A DNA stretch of 64,000 bases. Source: Neobacillus sp. SuZ13 (GTDB lineage: Bacteria; Bacillota; Bacilli; Bacillales; Cytobacillaceae). Positions 42,525 through 55,495 of this stretch are shown here, piece after piece. The translations under genes were made by a program, and so were the position numbers. The stretch spans positions 5,045,501 through 5,109,500 of the forward strand of contig NZ_CP126107.1 of assembly GCF_030123365.1 (NCBI RefSeq). The letters run 5' to 3'. Numbering within the stretch: the first letter of the stretch is position 1; every line of letters starts with the position of its first letter. The notes beneath the pieces were generated by a model that saw nothing but the letters and a program-made list of their open reading frames with translations, ran no database searches and had not been told where the DNA came from.

Positions 42525-42869
42525 TTATTTTTTCGCTGCAAGCCACTCAGCAACTTGGTTTGCATCATCGCCAGTTATTACGTTTGCAGGCATTTGCCCT
42601 TTACCATTTTTAATGATATTCAATATTTCGTCCTTAGAGTACTTTGAGCCAACCTTGGTAAGATTTGGACCCATACCACCTGTCAAATCACCGCCATGAC
42701 AGCTGGAGCATTTTTGATCAAAAATCTTCGCCGCCGTATCACTGCTGGCTGTTTCCGTTCCTTTGTCAGTTCCTGTGTCTTTACTTGTGTCTTTATCCCC
42801 GCCTCCGCAGGCAGCAAGACCCATTACTAATGCAGTTCCCATCAACATTGTAAGCCACTTCTTTTTCAC
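42525..42869 (-). CDS. cccB: Membrane lipoprotein cytochrome c-551
   Basis: Small monoheme cytochrome c of 114 residues. Lipoprotein signal with lipobox LAAC, a charged Asp/Lys/Thr linker, then one haem site (CSSCH) and the Met ligand in GQMPANV. It carries electrons on the outer membrane face towards oxidases. GTG at 42869 has AAGGGGG upstream. The position between ftsE and the yitT-like gene matches B. subtilis cccB. Confidence 0.93.
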
Positions 42870-42920
42870 GTTGTTACCCCCTTCAGAAAATATTACCATC
42901 AATGCCCTATTATACCAATC

Positions 42921-45378: not shown

Positions 45379-46219
45379 TTAATGTACAGTTCGTGACTCT
45401 TCATAACTACCTTTTGAGTGACAGTCCGCACACTTCGCATGCACCTCTTTATGGGCGGTATCCTTGGAGTGGCAGGTCGTGCAGGATGTATTTTTATCTT
45501 TTATCGGCTTGGACGACTACAGGATTAGTACTTTTGTGACAAGTATTACATGTGATCGGATTACCATCTGCATCAATTCTGCCGTCACGGGCATGTTCAT
45601 GGGTAAGTGATTTTGCATGGCATCCTGCACAGTCTGGTTCATTTGCTTTATGAAGCTCCGGTATGTCGTGGTGATTCAGAAGTCTCGTGGGTGTCGCTTG
45701 GTATCCTACATAACCTTTTACCTGGGATCCAGGCTGGTGGCAGAGAATACAATCATTCATTTCACGATTTTCCGTTATCCTGATTGGATTTTTGGATCAA
45801 CATTGGTTGGCTGATATTTAAATTGTAGGTGTAGATCCATGTGGTGCATAAGCGAACTGTCCATCCGGATCATCATGACACTGACTGCATCCCGCGGAAA
45901 CAGAAATATAATTATGACAATTATCACAACGACTGTTGGAATGTGTTCCGTGGAAATATAGTTTATTACTATGGACATTTTCCAAATCGCCGTTGCTGCC
46001 TGTAAAGCTATTTGATGGATGGCAGGCAGTACAGCTGGAAATATTTGAATCCCTCATGTCAGGGTAAGTATTGGTGTAAAATTTCCACTCTTCACTTATT
46101 GAAATACCTGAAATGTCGGAAGCAGCAATATAAACAGTATGGTAAGCCTCATTTTCCAATGACTCTGTTGGAGTATAACTTACTAAGCCTGAATTTGGAT
46201 CATACTTGAAGCTAACAGC
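45379..46219 (-). pseudogene. Broken secreted octaheme cytochrome gene
   Basis: No start codon: the frame opens right after a TAA (46222-46220) next to the terminator of the intact octaheme gene. It first encodes the end of an Ig-like domain (FKYDPNSGLVSYTPTES). Haem sites follow in order: CTACH, CDNCH, CSQCH; then stops TAA (45820-45818) and TGA (45799-45797); CILCH, CAGCH, CNTCH; a stop at 45496-45494; and, after a shift at an A-run, CTTCH and CADCH to the TAA at 45379. Eight haem sites in all. The 5' part and signal peptide are lost. Confidence 0.85.
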
Positions 46220-46228
46220 TTAGTCACA

Positions 46229-46267
46229 TAAAAAAGCAGTGAGATTTCACGATGATGAAATTCACTG
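46229..46267 (-). terminator. Terminator after the secreted octaheme gene
   Basis: GCAGTGA-ATTTCA pairs with TGAAAT-CTCACTGC, followed by TTTTTT on the minus strand. Confidence 0.85.
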
Positions 46268-46345
46268 CTGGAAATTTTAAATAGATCCTAACTTGGATGC
46301 CAGGCAACGAGGGATGTATAAATCATAAATATACACACCTCTCTT

Positions 46346-48379
46346 TTATGGAGTATCAACAATGTTATTTTTGTCGACATCAGTTCCAGTTTCATCTGAA
46401 GCAGTAGTACTAGAATCTGTAGTTGTTTGACTACTATCAGTAGCTGTTGAACTATTTTCTGTTGTAGTTGAACTATTTTCATTTGTAGTTGAACTATTTT
46501 CCTCCATGGTGGCATCAGATGGCTTTTCTGTTGGACTACTCGTATCTGTTGTTGTTTCGCTTGTATTTTCAGTCGAACTAGGTGCTGTTGGTAAACTTTC
46601 TGTTACAGGTTCTGGTTCAGAAATTGGAACGTATTTTGGTCCATGTGCAGCACTTAATATTCTGTCTCTAGCCAACCCACCTGTACCATGGCATAGGGAA
46701 CATGCCGCTGTTTGACTTGGATGATATTCTGGACTTAATGCCTTTGCCGTTACACCATAAAGCGAAGTAGAACCATTGTGGCACTGCAGACAAAAACGTC
46801 TCTCTGTACTAACATCCCAGCCTTTAATATCACCAGTAAACGAGAATGAAGTTGACGCTGGATTATCATGGCCAAACTGGCTTCTCAACAAGAAGGAATT
46901 GTTAGAACCATGGGTTTCGTGACATTCAGCACAAGGCATGAAGCCATTCAATTTCCTTCCGTCATCTGATGTAATCGAGTGTTGTGATGTTTCTTTAACT
47001 TTATAGAATTTTTTTATATTCGTATGACAGGACAGACATAATGAATAATCTTCCATGGCCCCACTAGATGTTAAAGATTTATTATATTTAAGATACTCAT
47101 AATATCCTTGTTTAAAGGTTTCACTATCGAAAATACTCTTATTTGTGTTTGAAACAGTATCCAATGCCGTATTATCTTCATGACAGGTAGCACAATCTGT
47201 TTCTAAGCTATCCACACTCAATGTTGTTAATCCTCTTTGATTTAAATCAGCAGTCTTATGATTATATACATAGTGGTCTTTTAATAAGTTAGGATTTTCC
47301 ACAGTCCAATCTAAATGTGGATTATGACATGTCGTACAGGACTCTTGTTGTTTTGCATCTAATCCAGCAGTGTGATGATTCTTACTATCACTATTATCAA
47401 TAAGTGGTGCATTCGTGGTTCCATCATGACAAGCCAAACAATAGTTTTTGGTTGAATCATCACCAGGTTCTAATTCGAGTTTATCAGTTGAACCTTTATG
47501 TGAGCTATGACATGTGGCGCACATATTAGTATTGTTTGAATAATGCCCATGTGGATTGCTACTTGTCTTATGGGTCTCATCATCATAGTCATCCCAATTT
47601 ACTGCACTTGTTCTTGTTGTAAACTTAAATGATTTTGCATTGACCTTGTTAAGAGTTACATCTCCTATAGCACTGGGAACTAGCTTAGCAGTAAAAGACT
47701 TATATAAAGAGAGTTTTTCGTCTGGTGTAAAAGTAATACTGTAAGCATGAATGCCTGGCACTTCAAGATCTTTCAGTGTTGAGGTTCCTTTAATTTCAGT
47801 GTCTCCTTGCATCACCTTGACTGCTTTGTCTTGATCAATTTGAGCAATAGGATACTCGTCCACAATAGTAAACTTTATTTTGGCGTTTTTAGGAGTACTT
47901 GTTAAATCATCCCCATAGAGGACTACATTATTTGGAAGAACAATCCCCGTACCGGAAATATAAAACTTTACTTTATCCGATTCTATAACATCAGCAGCTG
48001 TATCTTTAATTACCACTTTAATTTGATGCGCTCCGTCGCTTAGTCTTTTAGAGAATGTCCATGTTTTTTCTGTTGTATTGATAGTCCATTCGGCAGGATT
48101 GTCATCAGAGTTGGATATCTTTCTATCTGGGTCACCTACTTCGTACGCTGTTAATAGTAGATTTTTAGCCCGAACATTATCATAACTACCTTTAACAATA
48201 ACTTTCGTATCATTCAGTAATGCTTCAGAATCTGTTGTGCTATCTGGTTTGGTAATACTAATTAACGGTAGATCTGCAGCAAAAACTATCATACTTGTGC
48301 AGCTGAATAAGGTTAGCAATAAAAAAAGAAGTAACAGACCACTGAGAAATACCTTATTATGACTCAACATAGGATTCAT
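46346..48379 (-). CDS. Secreted octaheme c-type cytochrome with Ig-like N-terminus
   Basis: A 677-residue exported protein. Signal peptide 1-35 (hydrophobic 11-26; an LFSC could be an atypical lipobox). Residues about 36-255 are beta-rich, Ig/cadherin-like, without Cys. Eight CXXCH sites start at residues 287, 314, 348, 396, 448, 483, 530 and 560, with paired-CXXCH style text (HGHYSNNTNMCATCHSSH). Residues 590-665 are a Ser/Thr/Glu-rich tail like a wall-spanning linker, with no LPXTG or SLH motif. Own promoter. Probably an extracellular electron carrier; no enzymatic site is recognised. Confidence 0.88.
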   Translation of the reverse strand: MNPMLSHNKVFLSGLLLLFLLLTLFSCTSMIVFAADLPLISITKPDSTTDSEALLNDTKVIVKGSYDNVRAKNLLLTAYEVGDPDRKISNSDDNPAEWTINTTEKTWTFSKRLSDGAHQIKVVIKDTAADVIESDKVKFYISGTGIVLPNNVVLYGDDLTSTPKNAKIKFTIVDEYPIAQIDQDKAVKVMQGDTEIKGTSTLKDLEVPGIHAYSITFTPDEKLSLYKSFTAKLVPSAIGDVTLNKVNAKSFKFTTRTSAVNWDDYDDETHKTSSNPHGHYSNNTNMCATCHSSHKGSTDKLELEPGDDSTKNYCLACHDGTTNAPLIDNSDSKNHHTAGLDAKQQESCTTCHNPHLDWTVENPNLLKDHYVYNHKTADLNQRGLTTLSVDSLETDCATCHEDNTALDTVSNTNKSIFDSETFKQGYYEYLKYNKSLTSSGAMEDYSLCLSCHTNIKKFYKVKETSQHSITSDDGRKLNGFMPCAECHETHGSNNSFLLRSQFGHDNPASTSFSFTGDIKGWDVSTERRFCLQCHNGSTSLYGVTAKALSPEYHPSQTAACSLCHGTGGLARDRILSAAHGPKYVPISEPEPVTESLPTAPSSTENTSETTTDTSSPTEKPSDATMEENSSTTNENSSTTTENSSTATDSSQTTTDSSTTASDETGTDVDKNNIVDTP

Positions 48380-48452
48380 TCAATTCAACTCTTTTTCTGT
48401 AAATTTAATTATGTTTATTAAAGTTATTTTTTTATATAGGAGTTACAAATCA

Positions 48453-48458
48453 ATTATA
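48453..48458 (-). promoter_or_regulatory. Extended -10 promoter of the octaheme gene
   Basis: Minus strand TGC-TATAAT, with a poor -35 (TATTTT, 17 bases upstream). It suggests activator-dependent transcription. Confidence 0.55.
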
Positions 48459-48524
48459 GCAGTGATTTCGGAGGAAAATAGGGCGGAATTTGAGCAATTT
48501 ATTGTCTGTTTTGTGTCTTTAATA

Positions 48525-48542
48525 TTGACAATTTTGTGTCAA
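48525..48542. promoter_or_regulatory. Perfect dyad TTGACA-ATTTTG-TGTCAA upstream of the octaheme gene
   Basis: A 6-6-6 inverted repeat about 70-85 bases upstream of the -10, and a second TTTTGTGTC copy next to it (48509-48517 region). Possible activator site; regulator unknown. Confidence 0.4.
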
Positions 48543-48561
48543 ATAGTAGATAATAATAGGA

Positions 48562-48592
48562 AAGCAAGGTAACATCAATTGCTACCTTGCTC
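48562..48592 (-). terminator. Hairpin after the hexaheme gene
   Basis: AGCAAGGTA pairs with TACCTTGCT. The T-tract is weak. Confidence 0.6.
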
Positions 48593-48664
48593 TCTCTAAA
48601 AATGACATTTCAACTCTTCAAAGCTAACAAGTAGTGGCGCTATTTGTTGGCTTTTTTATTTGAA

Positions 48665-50536
48665 CTATTCTCTAGTTCCTGGTTGTCCTGGCTTTAATGG
48701 GGCTTCACCGTCATCTATGCCAACTCCAGCATCATTAACACCTGAATGACTGCCGTAAATAGCACTAGTAGGACCATCAAGACGGTCGTTGTTTACGTTA
48801 TTAATGAACTGACCGCCAGAACCGTGACAAGCGTAACATACTGACATACCAGTGTAACGTTTTAATGCAGAAGATGGGTTTGGATCAACATAATAACTTA
48901 AGTTTCCTGCGTGATCTCCTTCGTAATAAGACTCATCGTTAGAGTCCTTCATGATTGTAGCATCTGTACCGTGACCGTAGTGGCAACGTACGCAAGTAAG
49001 ATTGTCTTTTCCAGTTGTGTGGCGGTGTGCTTGAGTATAAGTACCAGTTTTAATAGTACGTGTATTAGACAAATAGTCAGTGTGACAAGCTGAACAATAT
49101 TTACTCATTTCTGTACCACTATCATAAACATAGTTTGCATAAGTACTATCAAATAAAGATCTAATATTAGTAGTAGTTTCAACATCAATACCTAAAGAGA
49201 TTGTTGCTTTAGTAACTGCATCAACATCTGCAGAAGTACCAACTGCAAAACCATCTCTCCAGACAATTTTTAGGGTTGTAGGAGCACCAGTTAAGACAGT
49301 ATTAGCTGCCTCACGGCTAGAACCTCTTAACCAAAGAGAGAAGTCTTTAGAATATGATTTTCCAGTCCATCTGTAGGTTTGGATGACCTTTTGACCTACT
49401 ACAACACCTTCGCGGCTATACATGTAACCTTCTTTTGTTTTATCTGTAGAAAGATCACCGGCTGCTACAGTTTTCTTAGCAACAATATACGGTGTAGTCA
49501 TTGATGATGGTAATGAAGCTGTATCTAAGTTAATGATAGTAAGATCTTTGAATAATTTACCATTTTTTCCGTCTGATGTAGATGTGTCATAAGCAACTCC
49601 ACCCCAGCCGAGTGGATCCATGTTCAAGTTGTTTTCCATTGTTGAACCAGATCCGTGTGGTGCGTGGCAGCTAGCACAGTTAAATTCGTTTCCCCAGATT
49701 GTGTTATTGCCTGCTGCTTTGGTGTTTCCTCCAGGAGCCGCACTTACATTAATGGAACCGTCAGATTGGTGAAGGGAACCATTGTGTGTAGTATCTTGTT
49801 TAACGTTAAATGTACCAGCGATTTCTTTTGTTGTTTCTTCAGTAGTTGATGCAAATGCGTTGTATGCACCAGTTGTACCATCATGACAAGCAGAACATGT
49901 GCTGTATACGCCGTCTTTGAATAATAATGCTTCACCTTCAGCAGCAGTGTGAGTTTGGTGACAAGCAGCACAAGAGTTTGTGTTGTTTTGATAGAAACCG
50001 TGTTTATTACCGCCTTTACTAGCAGCTCCAGGTACGCCAGTATGGTTGGCATTAACTAGACCTGAACCATCAACATCTAAAAGTCCTTCAGGGTCATTAG
50101 CAATTGAGGCTAAGCTTGGATTCTCATGAGTCCAATTTACTGCATATTTTGTCTCAGTCTCAGTTGTTCCATCCATAAGAACAAATTTGTAAATTACTTT
50201 CTGTTCAAAATTAACACCAGCAGAACCATCAGCTGAATAAGGAATATTGATCGTTTTGTACTCAGCAGCTGCACCTGTTGGTTCCGGGTATGCAGGTACA
50301 TCGCTTAGCATAGCAGATGTATATACTTCTGCATACTCCCCGTCTTGATTCTCATATACCTTTACGCTAAAGTCTTTCGAAGAATCATGACTAGTATTAA
50401 TAAACTTAAAATCATATCCTGTGCCGTTTGCAGTCAAACTGCCCCAGAAAGCTCCTCTTGCAAATACTGAGGTGCTAAGTATTCCCACTAGAATAATCGT
50501 TAAGACTAGTGAGAAGCTAAGTTTCATCTTACTCAT
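48665..50536 (-). CDS. Secreted hexaheme c-type cytochrome
   Basis: A 623-residue exported protein. Signal peptide 1-27 ending SVFA. Residues 28-180 are beta-rich and free of haem sites. Six CXXCH sites start at residues 189, 214, 287, 481, 515 and 567; there is a nearly 200-residue haem-free insert between the third and fourth. The paired-CXXCH pattern (HGFYQNNTNSCAACHQTH...CSACHDG) matches other Gram-positive surface cytochromes. No anchor is visible, so it should be free or assembled outside. GGGAGG lies 9 bases before the ATG; the leader carries an extra perfect Shine-Dalgarno and a purine tract. Confidence 0.9.
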   Translation of the reverse strand: MSKMKLSFSLVLTIILVGILSTSVFARGAFWGSLTANGTGYDFKFINTSHDSSKDFSVKVYENQDGEYAEVYTSAMLSDVPAYPEPTGAAAEYKTINIPYSADGSAGVNFEQKVIYKFVLMDGTTETETKYAVNWTHENPSLASIANDPEGLLDVDGSGLVNANHTGVPGAASKGGNKHGFYQNNTNSCAACHQTHTAAEGEALLFKDGVYSTCSACHDGTTGAYNAFASTTEETTKEIAGTFNVKQDTTHNGSLHQSDGSINVSAAPGGNTKAAGNNTIWGNEFNCASCHAPHGSGSTMENNLNMDPLGWGGVAYDTSTSDGKNGKLFKDLTIINLDTASLPSSMTTPYIVAKKTVAAGDLSTDKTKEGYMYSREGVVVGQKVIQTYRWTGKSYSKDFSLWLRGSSREAANTVLTGAPTTLKIVWRDGFAVGTSADVDAVTKATISLGIDVETTTNIRSLFDSTYANYVYDSGTEMSKYCSACHTDYLSNTRTIKTGTYTQAHRHTTGKDNLTCVRCHYGHGTDATIMKDSNDESYYEGDHAGNLSYYVDPNPSSALKRYTGMSVCYACHGSGGQFINNVNNDRLDGPTSAIYGSHSGVNDAGVGIDDGEAPLKPGQPGTRE

Positions 50537-50567
50537 TCCAAAAAACCTCCCAGTTTTTCTGTCTCTA

Positions 50568-50614
50568 TTTCTCTCTTTTTCTCTTTTTCTCTTTTTCTCT
50601 TTCTCTCTTTTTCT
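50568..50614 (-). repeat. Polypurine tract in the hexaheme leader
   Basis: 47 uninterrupted pyrimidines on the plus strand (purines in the mRNA), with TTTTTCTC repeats at 8-bp period, just before the ribosome site of the hexaheme gene. Confidence 0.8.
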
Positions 50615-50650
50615 AATTTGTAATACTAATCTCTCCCTCTATTAATGCAC

Positions 50651-50660
50651 CACCTCCTTT
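50651..50660 (-). promoter_or_regulatory. Perfect Shine-Dalgarno without a following start codon (STAB-SD-like)
   Basis: Minus strand AAAGGAGGTG, complementary to the 16S rRNA tail, lies 15 bases after the NHL gene stop, but no ATG, GTG or TTG start for a real ORF follows at proper distance. Similar sequences stabilise mRNAs such as cry3A in Bacillus. Confidence 0.5.
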
Positions 50661-50675
50661 AATGTTAAAAAGTTA

Positions 50676-51644
50676 TTAGTAATAAAGACCAACTCTTGCA
50701 TTAACGGTATCGGTGATAAACACCTCTCCCTTATCATCTACAAACAATCCGTTAGGAAGATAAAATTGCTCTTTTTCGCTGCCAATTCCACCAATTTGAA
50801 AAACTTGTTTTCCTTCCTTATCGTATCCATAGAGATAATGAGTCATATTATCGACCATTAATAAAGTTCCATTAGCCTGAACTCCAATTCCTCTTGGATT
50901 AACGAATTTAGAACTGCCTTTGCCATCTGCTGAACCGTTAATAATCCGCTTATACTTTCCGTTTTGATCATAAACTACTAGACGTTGATTACCTGTATCG
51001 GAAACATAGATATTATTATCATCGTCAACAGTAACTGCGTTTGGCGCATTGAGAGCATCTTTTTTCCCTGTTGCGGTATTAATTTCAAGTAATTTTTTCC
51101 CTGTAAGATCAAAGACATTTACTTTGTTTTTCGGAATATCTGTTACATATAGTTTGTTATTGTAAATTCGTAAACCGCCGGGACCTTTTAATGAGTCCTT
51201 TTTATTGGCAACTTCAAAGTATTTAATGAATTTTCCCTTTGAAGTAAAAATGGAGATTTTGCCATTGTATAGGTCAGCGACATAAACATTACCATCTTTA
51301 TCACCAGCAATACCGTATGGAAATTTAAATTGACCTTTATCGGATCCTTCCTTACCAAATTTGAAAATAGGCGTACCCGAAGTATCAAAAGCTTGAACTT
51401 GCTTGTGGTTTGTATCTGTTACATAGACATATTGTCCAACTTTCGTAACATCCATTGGTTTTTCAAGCGGGTCATTCATGTCCCCTTGAATGTAATAACT
51501 CAAGGTTGGAGGGCCACCTGCATCCACTTTACTAGCCACTTTTATAGCATTATCCTGAAGATTGAAAAAGTAAATCACGGCGAATAAAATGACACTAAGT
51601 GCGACAATGGTTCCCATCCATATATACGTTGTCTTTTTTTTCAC
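50676..51644 (-). CDS. Membrane-anchored NHL-repeat beta-propeller protein
   Basis: About 322 residues: one N-terminal membrane helix (about 10-28), then about six NHL blades with the recurring pattern F..P.GI..D..GN.YV.D (KFPYGIAGDKDGNVYVAD, NAPNAVTVDDDNNIYVSD, NPRGIGVQANGTLLMVD). The propeller should face outward. GTG at 51644 is preferred (AAGGAG 9 bases upstream). NHL proteins often accompany multiheme cytochrome genes in metal reducers; scaffold or maturation roles are inference. Confidence 0.85.
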   Translation of the reverse strand: MKKKTTYIWMGTIVALSVILFAVIYFFNLQDNAIKVASKVDAGGPPTLSYYIQGDMNDPLEKPMDVTKVGQYVYVTDTNHKQVQAFDTSGTPIFKFGKEGSDKGQFKFPYGIAGDKDGNVYVADLYNGKISIFTSKGKFIKYFEVANKKDSLKGPGGLRIYNNKLYVTDIPKNKVNVFDLTGKKLLEINTATGKKDALNAPNAVTVDDDNNIYVSDTGNQRLVVYDQNGKYKRIINGSADGKGSSKFVNPRGIGVQANGTLLMVDNMTHYLYGYDKEGKQVFQIGGIGSEKEQFYLPNGLFVDDKGEVFITDTVNARVGLYY

Positions 51645-51661
51645 GGATCCCATCTCCTTCC

Positions 51662-52354
51662 TTATTTCTTTTTAGTCTTTAGACGTTCTAATGCTTCTAG
51701 TGCTGGCTTAAATGTTGGATCATAAGAAAGAGATTCTTTATAAATATCTTCTGCATCTTTAAGTTTTCCTTGGTCCTCTGCCACTAAACCAGTTTCATAG
51801 ATTACATCTGTATTTCCTGGTTTATAACGATTGGCTGTTTCCAGTGCCTCAGTTGCTTTATCATACATTTTTAATTTACGGTGGCTTCTTGCTTTTAATA
51901 AAAGACTTTTATAATCTTGCGGAGCAAGTTTAGATGCCTTACTAGCCATTTGCAGTGCATCGTCAGTGCGTTTTTGCTTGTCATAAACAATAGCCAAATT
52001 CAAGTAGGCAGCATAATAATCTTTATCCAAGCTTTTCGCTGTCTGATATTCTTTTATAGCTTTGTCATCGTCACCCTTTAAAAAGTAACTATAACCTAAT
52101 TGCACTCTTAAACTTGCATCATTAGGTTTCTGTTCAACAAGTGCTTTGTTATATTCTATCTGCTTGACGATTTCATCATCATTTTTATTCCACAGGTATT
52201 TAGCACTTACATAATATCCTGCAGAGAGACAAATCGCTAAGGTCACAACAAGAATAATTAGCGATTGCCACCATGTAAAGCGGTCTTTCTTGACCTTTTT
52301 AATATTTTCTGTTCTGGATTGTTCCTGGGCATCAGGCTTAACTTGACTTTCCAT
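51662..52354 (-). CDS. Membrane-anchored TPR protein
   Basis: 230 residues: cytosolic N-terminus (1-27), a membrane helix (about 29-48), then four to five tetratricopeptide repeats (for example ASLRVQLGYSYFLKGDDDKA and YAAYLNLAIVYDKQKRTDDA). It has the topology of NrfG/CcmH-like helpers in c-type cytochrome maturation, so a chaperone role for the multiheme apoproteins is plausible but unproven. AGGAGGG precedes the ATG. Confidence 0.85.
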   Translation of the reverse strand: MESQVKPDAQEQSRTENIKKVKKDRFTWWQSLIILVVTLAICLSAGYYVSAKYLWNKNDDEIVKQIEYNKALVEQKPNDASLRVQLGYSYFLKGDDDKAIKEYQTAKSLDKDYYAAYLNLAIVYDKQKRTDDALQMASKASKLAPQDYKSLLLKARSHRKLKMYDKATEALETANRYKPGNTDVIYETGLVAEDQGKLKDAEDIYKESLSYDPTFKPALEALERLKTKKK

Positions 52355-52380
52355 ATTAGCCCTCCTAATCTAATAAATTA

Positions 52381-53544
52381 CTAATCTTCTTTATGGCATG
52401 ATGTACATTTAGGTTTATTATGACAGGTATAACAAAAATCAGTTGGTCTTGTTGCATCTTGAATATTAACTGGATGTCTTTCTTTAAAATTCTTGTCAGC
52501 ATGCATTGCTGGATGACAGCTATTACACGTAACATTATTCGTTTTATTAAATCCAGTCTTTTGTTTATCATGGCAGGCAAGACATGTTTCCGTACTCACC
52601 TTAGCTTTAGCACCATGAAGATTGACAAAACCTTTAACGTGATTTTTTGGTTTCGTCGTATGACAATCTTTACAAAACGTATTTTCCTTAGCATAATCTT
52701 GAGCTGAAATCTGGGTTGTTTTCGAGTCTGTATTACTTAAAAATTGTTGTGAAGCAGGGATTTCTACAAAACCCTTTATTTCAGTTTCGGACATATATGA
52801 ATGACATTTATTACAGCTTTTTAAATCTATCTTAGCTAACTCTCCGTGACTACCAGTTTTAAAATCCGACTCTTTGTGGGATTTCGGTAACACACCAGTG
52901 GTATGACAAGTTATACACTCGGTAGATACGTCACGTACTTCATGACATTCCACACAAGTTTCCATTTTAGTCTTAGTAAACTTCAAATCACTCATCATTG
53001 ATTTTCCCAGTGAGTCATCCCATTTTCCATAGTCTGTTTTGAAGGTTACTTGACGTTCTGCTATTTTCCCATGTGCAACGCCACTATGACACTGAGTACA
53101 TTTAACATCCTTGGCTAAGTGCTTATCATGTGGAATAATAATATCCCCAGAAGGTGTTACTTCTCGTTTTTCCATATTGTGACATGATTCACATGCTGAA
53201 TTTGGTATATTTTTTGGCATTTGAATTGGTGCTGAGTAGGTGTTCATCGTCTTTTTATATAACTCGACAACCCCGTTAGCTTTATTCTTTGCTAGATTCT
53301 TGGCCCCAGGCTGGATATGACAGCTAACACAATCCACTTCACTATGCGTGGAGGCTTTCCACGTATAGTACTCGGGTTTCATCTCATGACATGATGAGCA
53401 GTACCCTGAGCTAGAAGTAGCCTTTAGCCCAGAGAACCCAAGTGCAAGGAAGATTACTATAAAAAACAGTGCAAGAGTCATAAACTTAATTAATTTATAC
53501 CGATAACGAGGAGGGGCCGATCGCATTTCCTTTTCCTCTTCCAT
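52381..53544 (-). CDS. Membrane-anchored dodecaheme cytochrome, NapC/NirT-type N-terminus
   Basis: 387 residues: cytosolic tail, membrane helix (about 18-38), then twelve CXXCH sites starting at residues 49, 72, 118, 149, 197, 210, 244, 291, 321, 340, 371 and 380. The first four (CSSCHEMKPEYYTW, CVSCHIQPGAKN, CESCH, CTQCHSGVAH) follow the NapC/NrfH tetraheme quinol dehydrogenase pattern; the remaining eight form a C-terminal extension. Haem density is one per 32 residues. Likely accepts electrons from menaquinol or from the decaheme protein upstream and passes them outward. Confidence 0.9.
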   Translation of the reverse strand: MEEEKEMRSAPPRYRYKLIKFMTLALFFIVIFLALGFSGLKATSSSGYCSSCHEMKPEYYTWKASTHSEVDCVSCHIQPGAKNLAKNKANGVVELYKKTMNTYSAPIQMPKNIPNSACESCHNMEKREVTPSGDIIIPHDKHLAKDVKCTQCHSGVAHGKIAERQVTFKTDYGKWDDSLGKSMMSDLKFTKTKMETCVECHEVRDVSTECITCHTTGVLPKSHKESDFKTGSHGELAKIDLKSCNKCHSYMSETEIKGFVEIPASQQFLSNTDSKTTQISAQDYAKENTFCKDCHTTKPKNHVKGFVNLHGAKAKVSTETCLACHDKQKTGFNKTNNVTCNSCHPAMHADKNFKERHPVNIQDATRPTDFCYTCHNKPKCTSCHKED

Positions 53545-53572
53545 AAAAGCGTCCCTCCAGATTGTTAATTAA

Positions 53573-54952
53573 TTACTTTCCATCAGATTTAAAGCCAGTT
53601 CTATGGCAGTATTGGCAATAAACATCTGTAGGCGCTTTTGCATCAGTCGGGCCTGCTTTTGGTTTTTCACGATCATGACAGACCATACATTCAGATTTCT
53701 GGGTTGCTGTTTTTGCCTTATCAGCATGTGCTGTCAGCCATTGATCACTTTCACCATGTCCCGAAGGGCGATCAGCGTGACAGGCGCTACAGAATTTATT
53801 TGTTCGTGCTTGATCTTTTACAAGTGTTAAGTTTGGCGTGTATTTAACTTTTTGATTGCCCATTTTTAGAAGGGACATAATATCTTCTTTCGGAATTGCT
53901 CTAACCCATTTAGAATCTTGGTGACAGTTAACGCACTTATCTAGCAGTTGAACTGCGGTCCTGCCATGATTATTGCTCCAATTAACAGTTTGGTGTGTTT
54001 TTGGAATTTCCGTTTGCTTGTGGCAGGTTTTACATTCCATTGAAATCTTAACGTCTTTCTTTTGTTTACCAATCGCTTGTAAGATGATTTCTTGTGTTTT
54101 TACATCATGCTCTGCTGCAACTGCTTCCGGATTTTCTCCTTCAGTTGTGGCTTCAGTTGAGACTTTAGCTGTTGCTTCTTTTGATTTTTCTTCGAGTTTT
54201 TTCTCTAATTCTTCTGGATTTGGCGGAACGTTATATGCAGCTTCTTTCCAAGGCTTTTCGCCATTATTTACTTTGTCATGGCAGTCAATACAAGTGCCCA
54301 TATTAGGCCTCAAGTATTTTTTTTCCATTAACTTTTCAGCACTTTCCTTTGTCCATTCACCACGTACTTCTTCAACGTTGATTCCGCGGGTTGCCATTTT
54401 TGCGTGAACAACACCAGCATGACAAGTAATACAAGGGATATCTTTCTCGATATGGCCTTTGTGATTAACCTTTAAGTCACCAGACGCTGTAACTAGACGG
54501 TTCTTCGAGTGACATTGCAAACAGTTTTCGTTTGAAACTGCTTCTTCTTCAGTTTGAACGATTTGTTCAGGTACTCCAGTTACGTGATAATATACTTCTT
54601 TCACCGATTTCATCTTGTGTGTGATCATGTTCGTAAAGCCAGGCTTGATATGACACTGAACACATGAAATCTGATTGTGGGCACTTGCAGTAAACGTTGA
54701 ATATTCGGGTGCCATTTCATGACAACTCGCACAGAAAGTCGGGGAGTTTGTCATGGTTAAAACTCCATATCCTCCCCCAAAAACAACAATACAGCCAACA
54801 AGTGAAACAAACAGTAATTTCCACCTGTTCACTGGGTTCTTCCAGTCAATCCCTCGAAACTTTTGCCATAATCCTCGAATCAGGCCAGCCTTTTTTCTAT
54901 CTTCTCTACTTTCGGGATCTTTATCTTTATTTTTTTTCCCCCAAATGGCCAC
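53573..54952 (-). CDS. Membrane-anchored decaheme cytochrome, NapC/NirT-type N-terminus
   Basis: 459 residues, first gene of the island. A charged cytosolic tail (1-44) and one membrane helix (about 46-68) precede ten CXXCH sites starting at residues 74, 97, 144, 174, 221, 307, 340, 388, 422 and 446. The first four match NapC/NirT (CASCHEMAPEYSTF, CVQCHIKPGFTN, CLQCH, CITCHAGVVHAK). A Lys/Glu-rich linker of about 60 residues (about 245-303) splits haems 5 and 6. Start is GTG after GGGAAGGGTG. Predicted menaquinol oxidase and electron entry point. Confidence 0.9.
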   Translation of the reverse strand: MAIWGKKNKDKDPESREDRKKAGLIRGLWQKFRGIDWKNPVNRWKLLFVSLVGCIVVFGGGYGVLTMTNSPTFCASCHEMAPEYSTFTASAHNQISCVQCHIKPGFTNMITHKMKSVKEVYYHVTGVPEQIVQTEEEAVSNENCLQCHSKNRLVTASGDLKVNHKGHIEKDIPCITCHAGVVHAKMATRGINVEEVRGEWTKESAEKLMEKKYLRPNMGTCIDCHDKVNNGEKPWKEAAYNVPPNPEELEKKLEEKSKEATAKVSTEATTEGENPEAVAAEHDVKTQEIILQAIGKQKKDVKISMECKTCHKQTEIPKTHQTVNWSNNHGRTAVQLLDKCVNCHQDSKWVRAIPKEDIMSLLKMGNQKVKYTPNLTLVKDQARTNKFCSACHADRPSGHGESDQWLTAHADKAKTATQKSECMVCHDREKPKAGPTDAKAPTDVYCQYCHRTGFKSDGK

Positions 54953-55495
54953 TTAACTCACCCTTCCCATTTTGGATTCTTTCTCTCTCTATATTTTCCA
55001 TATCAACCTCTCTAAAGGTAGTATCTAACATTGTAAGAGTATATTCCAATGTACAATTTGTGAATAATATTTCAAAGAAACGAAATGAGTAATTTCTACT
55101 AAAAACAACACATAAATGTTGTTATCACAATGATATTTAATACTATGTTAATGTTGTTTATTTTGCATACAAATGAGTATTTATTCATTTTCGTAATTTT
55201 TTATACATTTTTCAAGCTTTTTTCGAGCTTTGAATTTCTAGTTGAAAATACATTCTCAAAATCACGTCATATTTCTGACATATATGACGAAAAATCGAAC
55301 TTATCGAAGTCCAAGCTGAAGTGATTGACTTGGAAGGAAATATAATAGATGATTGTACGAATCTTGTTTCCTTCTATGATTGTTGTCACTGTATTGTGGA
55401 AATGGTAAGATAAAAAAGGAAAATAGCGAATATTCTTGAATGGATTTTTTTTAAAATAGTGTATTAGTCTCGATAAAAAGGAGCGTTCATCAGAT
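54953..55495. promoter_or_regulatory. Divergent control region between the cytochrome island and secA
   Basis: 543 bp without a convincing gene, strongly AT-rich. For the leftward operon a weak TTGGAA-N16-TAGATA lies at about 55025-55052. A perfect dyad AACAACA-CATAAA-TGTTGTT is at 55104-55123 and a TTGTGAA half-site (Rex/Fnr-like) at 55058-55064. AAAAAGGAG before secA is its ribosome site; no clear secA promoter could be assigned. Confidence 0.45.

Follow-up and report, generated by a model that had tools for sequence, protein, structure and literature searches.

The closest published counterpart of the gene set described here is the Thermincola system of ImdcA, PdcA, CwcA and OcwA, in which the hexaheme CwcA is 18% identical to the Geobacter cytochrome OmcS, is modelled as a polymer within the peptidoglycan, and is proposed to carry electrons from PdcA to OcwA or to outside acceptors (PMC7911101). 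Here we describe a multiheme cytochrome island in Neobacillus sp. SuZ13. The island lies in a 64-kb window (the whole stretch of DNA that was analysed, positions 5045501-5109500 of the 6.09-Mb single-contig genome) and consists of six intact co-directional genes, g1 to g6, on the minus strand between secA and prfB. These genes carry 10, 12, 0, 0, 6 and 8 CXXCH haem-binding motifs, respectively, for a sum of 36 intact motifs, and are accompanied by the broken remnant of an additional octaheme gene (~45382-46225, minus strand, 8 CXXCH in two frames). A first-pass annotation had listed the same genes with these coordinates, strand and motif counts, as well as the broken 8-CXXCH gene, and had drawn a parallel with Thermincola; our analysis agrees on each of these points, with CwcA and ImdcA as the nearest published pieces. 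We consider that the island is probably a conduit for electron export of the type described in Gram-positive Thermincola, with export, polymerisation and an external acceptor as predictions.

Two features of the Thermincola type are present in the island: a membrane-anchored decaheme with a NapC/NirT N-terminus (g1), for which quinol oxidation is predicted, and an OmcS-like hexaheme (g5). The likeness is set by published descriptions and by the match of g5 to OmcS. The island ends in an octaheme (g6) with 8 CXXCH, unlike Thermincola, whose OcwA is a nonahaem protein, and it adds TPR and NHL genes within the operon, distinct allele types, and a spore-forming Bacillaceae host. The two systems share a membrane multihaem quinol oxidase, an OmcS-like hexaheme and a surface multihaem protein, but the island combines its decaheme with a membrane-anchored dodecaheme in the place of a soluble decaheme (PMC7911101).

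The genes g1 (53573-54952, 459 aa, 10 CXXCH) and g2 (52381-53544, 387 aa, 12 CXXCH) encode a membrane-anchored decaheme and dodecaheme, each with an NrfH-like N-terminal part. That these proteins are NapC-like, as had been claimed, is borne out by scores of 91 and 59.6 bits to the Pfam NapC/NirT family (PF03264, curated cut-off 24.1), and sets of CXXCH proteins of this kind recur in relatives. The decaheme aligns with NrfH (2j7a) at 44-187 (E=1e-10) and keeps the CXXCHxM haem-1 motif, and g2 also aligns with NrfH. Both thus share with NrfH and NapC an anchored, tetrahaem-like N-terminal part with CXXCHxM, but differ in carrying six to eight further haems. Scores to the NrfH equivalog TIGR03153 (74.8 and 68.9 bits) lie under its cut-off of 134.2, as does that of the genome's own NrfH-like protein (119.2 bits). 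We propose that g1 may act as a membrane menaquinol oxidase. The path sketched in the first-pass annotation, from menaquinol through NapC-like proteins to secreted cytochromes, finds support in homology (g1 and g2 to NrfH, g5 to OmcS), its export step being a prediction. Under this model, menaquinol would be oxidised by membrane-anchored g1 and g2, electrons would then pass to g5, an OmcS-family hexaheme probably stacked end to end through the thick wall, and from there by way of the surface octaheme g6 to an acceptor outside the cell, for instance Fe(III), Mn(IV), humics or an electrode, with the membrane-anchored TPR and NHL proteins as putative assembly or docking partners dedicated to the hexaheme.

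The relation of g5 (48665-50536, 623 aa, 6 CXXCH, predicted to be secreted) to OmcS is most apparent when a broad hexaheme profile is used. This profile (A5), made of 23 sequences (17 from outside the family, five named family members, and g5), finds OmcS (6ef8) at E=2.4e-18, the next PDB chain following at E=1.4e-6. A single collinear alignment joins positions 94-416 of the profile to OmcS 8-405 with the six haem motifs in order, and OmcS reaches 69.3 bits, compared with at most 31.9 bits for 100 shuffles that keep both CXXCH and His and 16.9 bits for 100 shuffles that keep CXXCH alone. In 68 hexaheme rows (g5 and 67 of 80 listed hexaheme open reading frames, ORFs), the invariant non-motif histidines of g5 are H179, H196, H256, H294, H506 and H522, among which H196, H256, H294 and H522 align with OmcS His16, 110, 147 and 335, and H179 precedes the OmcS stretch compared. 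His16 is presumably the OmcS residue that serves as ligand to the haem of the neighbouring subunit. In OmcS, 11 of the 12 axial histidines are described as coming from the same subunit and one from its neighbour (PMC6584659; also PMC12307469). Geobacter OmcS (PDB 6EF8/6NEF) and g5 have in common six CXXCH each and a full-length collinear alignment, with 23% identity (57/246 aligned columns), but g5 differs in its host, which has no outer membrane, and in its added beta domains, which the AlphaFold model places at the N-terminus (~27-135) and as an insert between haems 3 and 4 (~310-450). Judged on these alignments, g5 is an OmcS homologue, a filament form being predicted, and OmcS, g5 and g6 are members of one superfamily.

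Several observations weigh against a wire-like, respiratory role. A profile built from the 68 Neobacillus and Mesobacillus rows alone gives OmcS just 25 bits, and the hexaheme profile gives g6 octahemes as many as 76.5 bits, no less than OmcS itself, so that the likeness is one at superfamily level and does not by itself indicate polymerisation. The invariant H506 has no histidine partner in the OmcS alignment, haem 6 of g5 is not placed in the mapping, the AlphaFold model has pLDDT below 50 at 135-258 and 551-623, i.e. in the haem regions, and Foldseek returned no match to this model at E<=0.001. OmcS filaments have, moreover, been doubted as a requirement for Fe(III) reduction by Geobacter (PMC11077965), and a paddy-soil study that links Neobacillus abundance with Fe(II) handles the genus as hydrolytic and not as iron-reducing (PMC13150079). 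An hhalign match between the Neobacillus/Mesobacillus-only profile and OmcS (29 columns, E=1.6e-11) was not used as support, because an octaheme control matched the same OmcS spot over 30 columns at E=7e-7. Separately, PDB 6r2q chain A is named cystathionine beta-synthase, though the sequence matched is a multihaem cytochrome.

The first-pass annotation had regarded such sets as rare among aerobic Bacillaceae, a view that our survey contradicts: g1 is found (E<=1e-40) in 53 of 61 Neobacillus genomes, in one of them partially, and, family-wide, in 82 out of 193, spread over 11 of 25 genera. A named collection held 108 stretches with a relative of g2; we retained the 80 best, which fall in 77 loci. 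Our census covers 60 of these (L078-L137, the remote L138-L154 being excluded), from Neobacillus, Mesobacillus, Pseudoneobacillus, records labelled Bacillus or Paenibacillus, and two Bacillota metagenome-assembled genomes. The neighbourhood comparison that had been suggested as a check bears out the island, with g1 to g6 in this order near secA in 58 of the 60 loci, g5 being present in one to four copies and a few loci having shortened ORFs or fewer motifs. The two remaining loci are L082, which ends with its contig, and L086, where tblastn still matched g2 although ORF picking had retained an antisense frame at that place. All 60 contain a secA ORF longer than 800 aa. Motif numbers are equally stable for most genes, with 10 motifs in 61/65 ORFs labelled g1, 12 in 59/60 labelled g2 and six in 80/82 labelled g5, while those labelled g6 have eight motifs in 31/60 and seven in 25. 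The closest named relative by secA is Bacillus sp. AFS073361 (L103, 99%), followed by several at 92-94%, including N. drentensis (93%). A genome titled Mesobacillus subterraneus MER TA 170 (L118) has the island; to go by the title of a 2002 paper by Kanso, Bacillus subterraneus is reportedly iron- and manganese-reducing. Our literature searches on multiheme cytochromes and extracellular electron transfer in Neobacillus and Bacillaceae did not turn up any description of the island for Neobacillus, and a plasmid search with g5 gave no match. The set is thus a genus-wide system and not an oddity.

This conservation bears on the idea that the island is a decaying relic. The octaheme remnant at its end would fit such an account, as would the lack of g1 (at E<=1e-40) in 8 of the 61 genus genomes and the shortened g1 or g6 ORFs of a few relatives. 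Against these stand the six intact frames in this genome, the conserved order just described, and haem ligands that are invariant in the g5 and g6 alignments, and we regard decay of the island as a whole as extremely improbable. The remnant itself matches a 322-aa, 8-haem ORF of N. rhizophilus (L079) in two pieces, at 77% and 73%, and is 62% identical to ORFs in L116 and L127. It spans residues 382-619 of the 650-aa ORF in L116, so its front part is missing. In the whole window CXXCH occurs 52 times, and the eight occurrences outside the island are scattered over six frames.

The octaheme g6 (46346-48379, 677 aa, 8 CXXCH, predicted to be secreted) has N-terminal beta domains and a Ser/Thr-rich tail and is paralogous to the hexaheme family. 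Its secretion signal, Ser/Thr-rich tail and place in the operon make it a candidate surface terminal carrier. A different reading is that electrons from the island go to a soluble or wall-bound reductase of the nitrite, tetrathionate, selenate or trimethylamine N-oxide type, with g6 as the enzyme or as a carrier to one elsewhere. Reductases with eight haems that act on nitrogen and sulfur compounds are known, a relative's hexaheme gives a weak score of 15.6 bits to TIGR04315 (cut-off 375), and the genome holds another multihaem respiratory pair, an NrfHA-like one encoded ~320 kb from the island. But that NrfA-like gene, whose product scores 328.7 bits to a nitrite reductase model (cut-off 595), is paired with its own NrfH-like partner; the six island genes are consecutive in 58 of the 60 loci, a count that covers island genes; and g6 has seven invariant non-motif histidines and one conserved in at least 90% of 53 rows (the window and 52 of 56 listed) for its eight haems, which leaves no obvious open haem. 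We therefore consider a dedicated reductase unlikely as the destination of the electrons. Nitrite ammonification in particular is disfavoured as the island's purpose, since the NrfHA-like pair elsewhere would serve it with no need of the island. The AlphaFold model of g6 is weak in the haem regions, and of its 233 Foldseek matches at E<=0.001 the 50 listed show low TM-scores, L,D-transpeptidases and antibody chains making up most of them, which reflects the beta domains. No entry under the name OcwA came up at E 0.01 in a profile search with g6. The genome encodes ResB, which takes part in cytochrome c maturation.

At the centre of the conserved set, together with the OmcS-type hexaheme, is a fixed pair of genes, g3 (51662-52354, 230 aa), a TPR protein by Pfam matches, and g4 (50676-51653, 325 aa), an NHL beta-propeller (Pfam NHL, 73.9 bits). 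By eye, the products of both begin with a hydrophobic segment, as do those of g1 and g2, and the N-termini of g5 and g6 are signal-peptide-like. A purine-rich AGAGAAAAAG repeat at 50560-50650 separates g4 from g5. Beyond the family, a g2 alignment search matched 4 of 398 genomes of the class at E<=1e-30 and 48 of 398 of the phylum at E<=1e-20 (own genome included in both); 29 of the latter 398 match at E<=1e-40, some of them at less than full length, and the remainder match mainly in the NrfH-like front part. From these we took 19 distant loci, three from the class and 16 from the better phylum matches, which are not a random sample. A cytochrome of at least 11 haems is followed by TPR, NHL and a cytochrome of six or seven haems in 16 of the 19 (exactly six in 15 of these 16), making g2 the first gene of a core that recurs across Bacillota, and the TPR gene adjoins the NHL gene in all 60 named and in 18 of the 19 distant loci. 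At one of them, L196, from another family of Bacilli, the island again lies beside secA and prfB. More remotely, Planctomycete loci, mostly Brocadia (L140-L154), encode 11-haem proteins of ~405 aa that are 24-31% identical to g2; two TPR-like ORFs and a 7-haem one lie upstream in some of these loci.

We propose that g3 and g4 may be partners or assembly factors of the hexaheme, because of their strict adjacency, their co-inheritance, and the matching of NHL type with hexaheme form set out below. In multihaem Fe clusters of Dethiobacter alkaliphilus, a natronophile of another class, NHL- and TPR-repeat proteins are likewise encoded with the cytochromes and are given a possible role in complex assembly by the authors, and of the cytochromes that increase when ferrihydrite or thiosulfate is being reduced, the majority are described as belonging to NHL/TPR-encoding clusters (PMC10376724); the likeness is one of gene content, and those clusters are larger. 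A review considers that relatively little is known of how cytochrome nanowires are assembled (PMC12307469). The D. alkaliphilus clusters bear as well on the direction of flow, since some are accompanied by relatives of MtoA (PMC10376724). Multihaem chains are, by textbook knowledge, reversible in principle, and electrons could enter from Fe(II), reduced humics or a cathode to feed menaquinone, but menaquinone is of low potential and NapC/NrfH-type proteins act as quinol oxidases in known cases. Inward flow thus seems very unlikely to us beside the outward conduit that we favour.

Upstream of g1 lies a conserved promoter or leader block (55005-55065, minus strand) with a TTTGTGAAT box at 55057-55065. 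The exact box is present in 52 of 60 g1 upstream regions (window included), as against 1.7 of 60 in first-order Markov shuffles, and the block is at least 80% identical to the window's in 47 of 60. Ten of the 60 blocks depart from the window's in at least 20 of its 61 bases, and five of these come from Mesobacillus or close relatives. TTTGTGAAT resembles the ResD box of Bacillus subtilis, a label for which a literature search found no supporting paper. The ResD-like label is that of a candidate, because patterns for FNR (10/60 regions with up to one mismatch, 1.0 in shuffles) and Rex (19/60 with up to two mismatches, 2.0 in shuffles) also exceed shuffles, perhaps owing to a shared half-site; the CcpA pattern upstream of g1 is as frequent in the 60 regions as in shuffles. 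A leader with a box like that of the anaerobic regulator ResD tells against the suggestion that the island serves reductive iron assimilation or redox defence of the wall instead of respiration, and 36 haems would be a costly means of gaining iron. This suggestion draws on the retention of the island in mostly aerobic soil spore formers and on the small number of genus papers retrieved, in which respiratory Fe(III) reduction is not described; we consider it to be quite improbable, and respiratory electron export to be the better account of the island.

The most surprising part of the island is the discordant history of its outer genes. Across pairwise identities among the window and the 60 named loci, Spearman correlation with secA is high for g1 (0.80) and for hpf (0.89), yitT (0.82) and prfB (0.65), but falls to 0.21, 0.05, 0.05, 0.02 and 0.03 for g2 to g6. 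In 500 label permutations, the g1 value was reached 0 times and that of g2 twice, compared with 109, 93, 203 and 131 times for g3, g4, g5 and g6. Within the island, correlations of 0.87 (g3-g4), 0.67 (g2-g4), 0.60 (g4-g5) and 0.45 (g5-g6) were not equalled in any of 500 permutations. The comparison with L103 is illustrative, identity being 99% for secA and hpf and 86% for g1, then 56, 46, 57, 47 and 29% for g2 to g6. Continuous DNA alignment stops inside g2, at 52856 (L103, L102) or 52942 (L089), and weaker pieces follow beyond this edge, at 67-71% within g3 and g4 and at 78-81% over ~80 bases where g5 starts. With N. cucumis (L126), the alignment continues to 48384, just before g6 begins. The g2 protein is more divergent after about residue 230, but its front part also correlates weakly with secA (0.11-0.29), so the edge differs between pairs. 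The history of g2-g6 differs from that of g1, secA and the leader, which suggests that the segment was replaced among species at one address by recombination. As a side observation, g2-g6 of the window (46346-53544) are a mosaic when set against L078-L137, being like N. cucumis and N. rhizophilus up to g5, with g6 nearest, among the loci tabulated, to that of Bacillus sp. USDA818B3 (L080, 69%); g6 can thus change apart from the rest.

Single-linkage clustering of the NHL protein at 65% identity yields three types. Type A (24 loci including the window) has one hexaheme of 544-727 aa, type B (27 loci) has one to four hexahemes of 339-474 aa, and type C (10 loci) has one hexaheme of 507-573 aa. 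The number of types depends on the threshold, linkage at 70% giving ten clusters and not three, and g3 alone sets C apart but does not separate A from B. In the NHL tree, B (97) and C (100) each occupy one side of a branch, and A not quite. The types show little clustering with species: 23 changes are needed on the secA tree, as against a mean of 26.1 with shuffled labels (as low in 22/200), with some clustering of type A taken by itself (15 changes versus 19.3; as low in 12/500). By two-tree AU tests on a quick tree, the secA data reject monophyly of type C (p 1.7e-48) and of type B (p 2.6e-5), and all three types occur among close relatives around N. drentensis (L089, type B; L099, type A; L122 and L123, type C). 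None of the 60 named loci has two NHL genes, so that replacement by recombination in flanking sequence is a more economical account than a tandem ancestor from which copies were lost. The upstream blocks of the three types are alike (mean identities to the window's of 84, 85 and 92% in the 60 sequences), so the promoter appears to stay with g1.

It is conceivable, and we advance it tentatively as somewhat short of an even chance, that in Neobacillus and its relatives three co-adapted cassettes, each having an NHL type of its own, are exchanged between species at this fixed address onto a constant, vertically inherited decaheme and promoter, with the NHL and TPR proteins as type-specific machinery for nanowire assembly. 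Each cassette would comprise most of g2, the TPR and NHL genes and the hexaheme, which would be single and long, single and of medium length, or short and present in one to four tandem copies, with g6 moving partly on its own. Linkage alone could pair NHL type with hexaheme form, so that co-adaptation is a matter of interpretation. The relation to OmcS, the conserved TPR-NHL core and the allele types all go beyond the first-pass annotation, and they move OmcS-like cytochromes from strict anaerobes to common, culturable soil spore formers, in which extracellular electron transfer has not been assumed. The TPR and NHL genes would be genetic candidates for how cytochrome wires assemble in a one-membrane cell, and the natural allele types a ready set for asking which parts of a wire must match. 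If the proposal is true, OmcS-like nanowires of Gram-positive cells would owe their assembly to NHL and TPR proteins.

Some further observations concern the surroundings of the island. In several species (L105, L120, L124, L100, L099, L122, L123 and L129, and also G028, G036, G037, G043, G052 and G055), additional g1-like decahemes (~43-62% identical to g1) are encoded next to the island or on the other side of secA. A mostly ~640-aa protein that starts with a SEC-C zinc motif is encoded near the island in 23 of the 60 loci, whereas the interval from the island to prfB in this window has no ORF for it; an apparent second SecA beside the island proved to be merely this motif of 20-33 residues in an unrelated protein. 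No Rfam family or tRNA was detected within the 64-kb window. Beyond prfB, at 42525-42902, lies a gene for a lipoprotein-like mono-haem cytochrome c that resembles CccB of B. subtilis.

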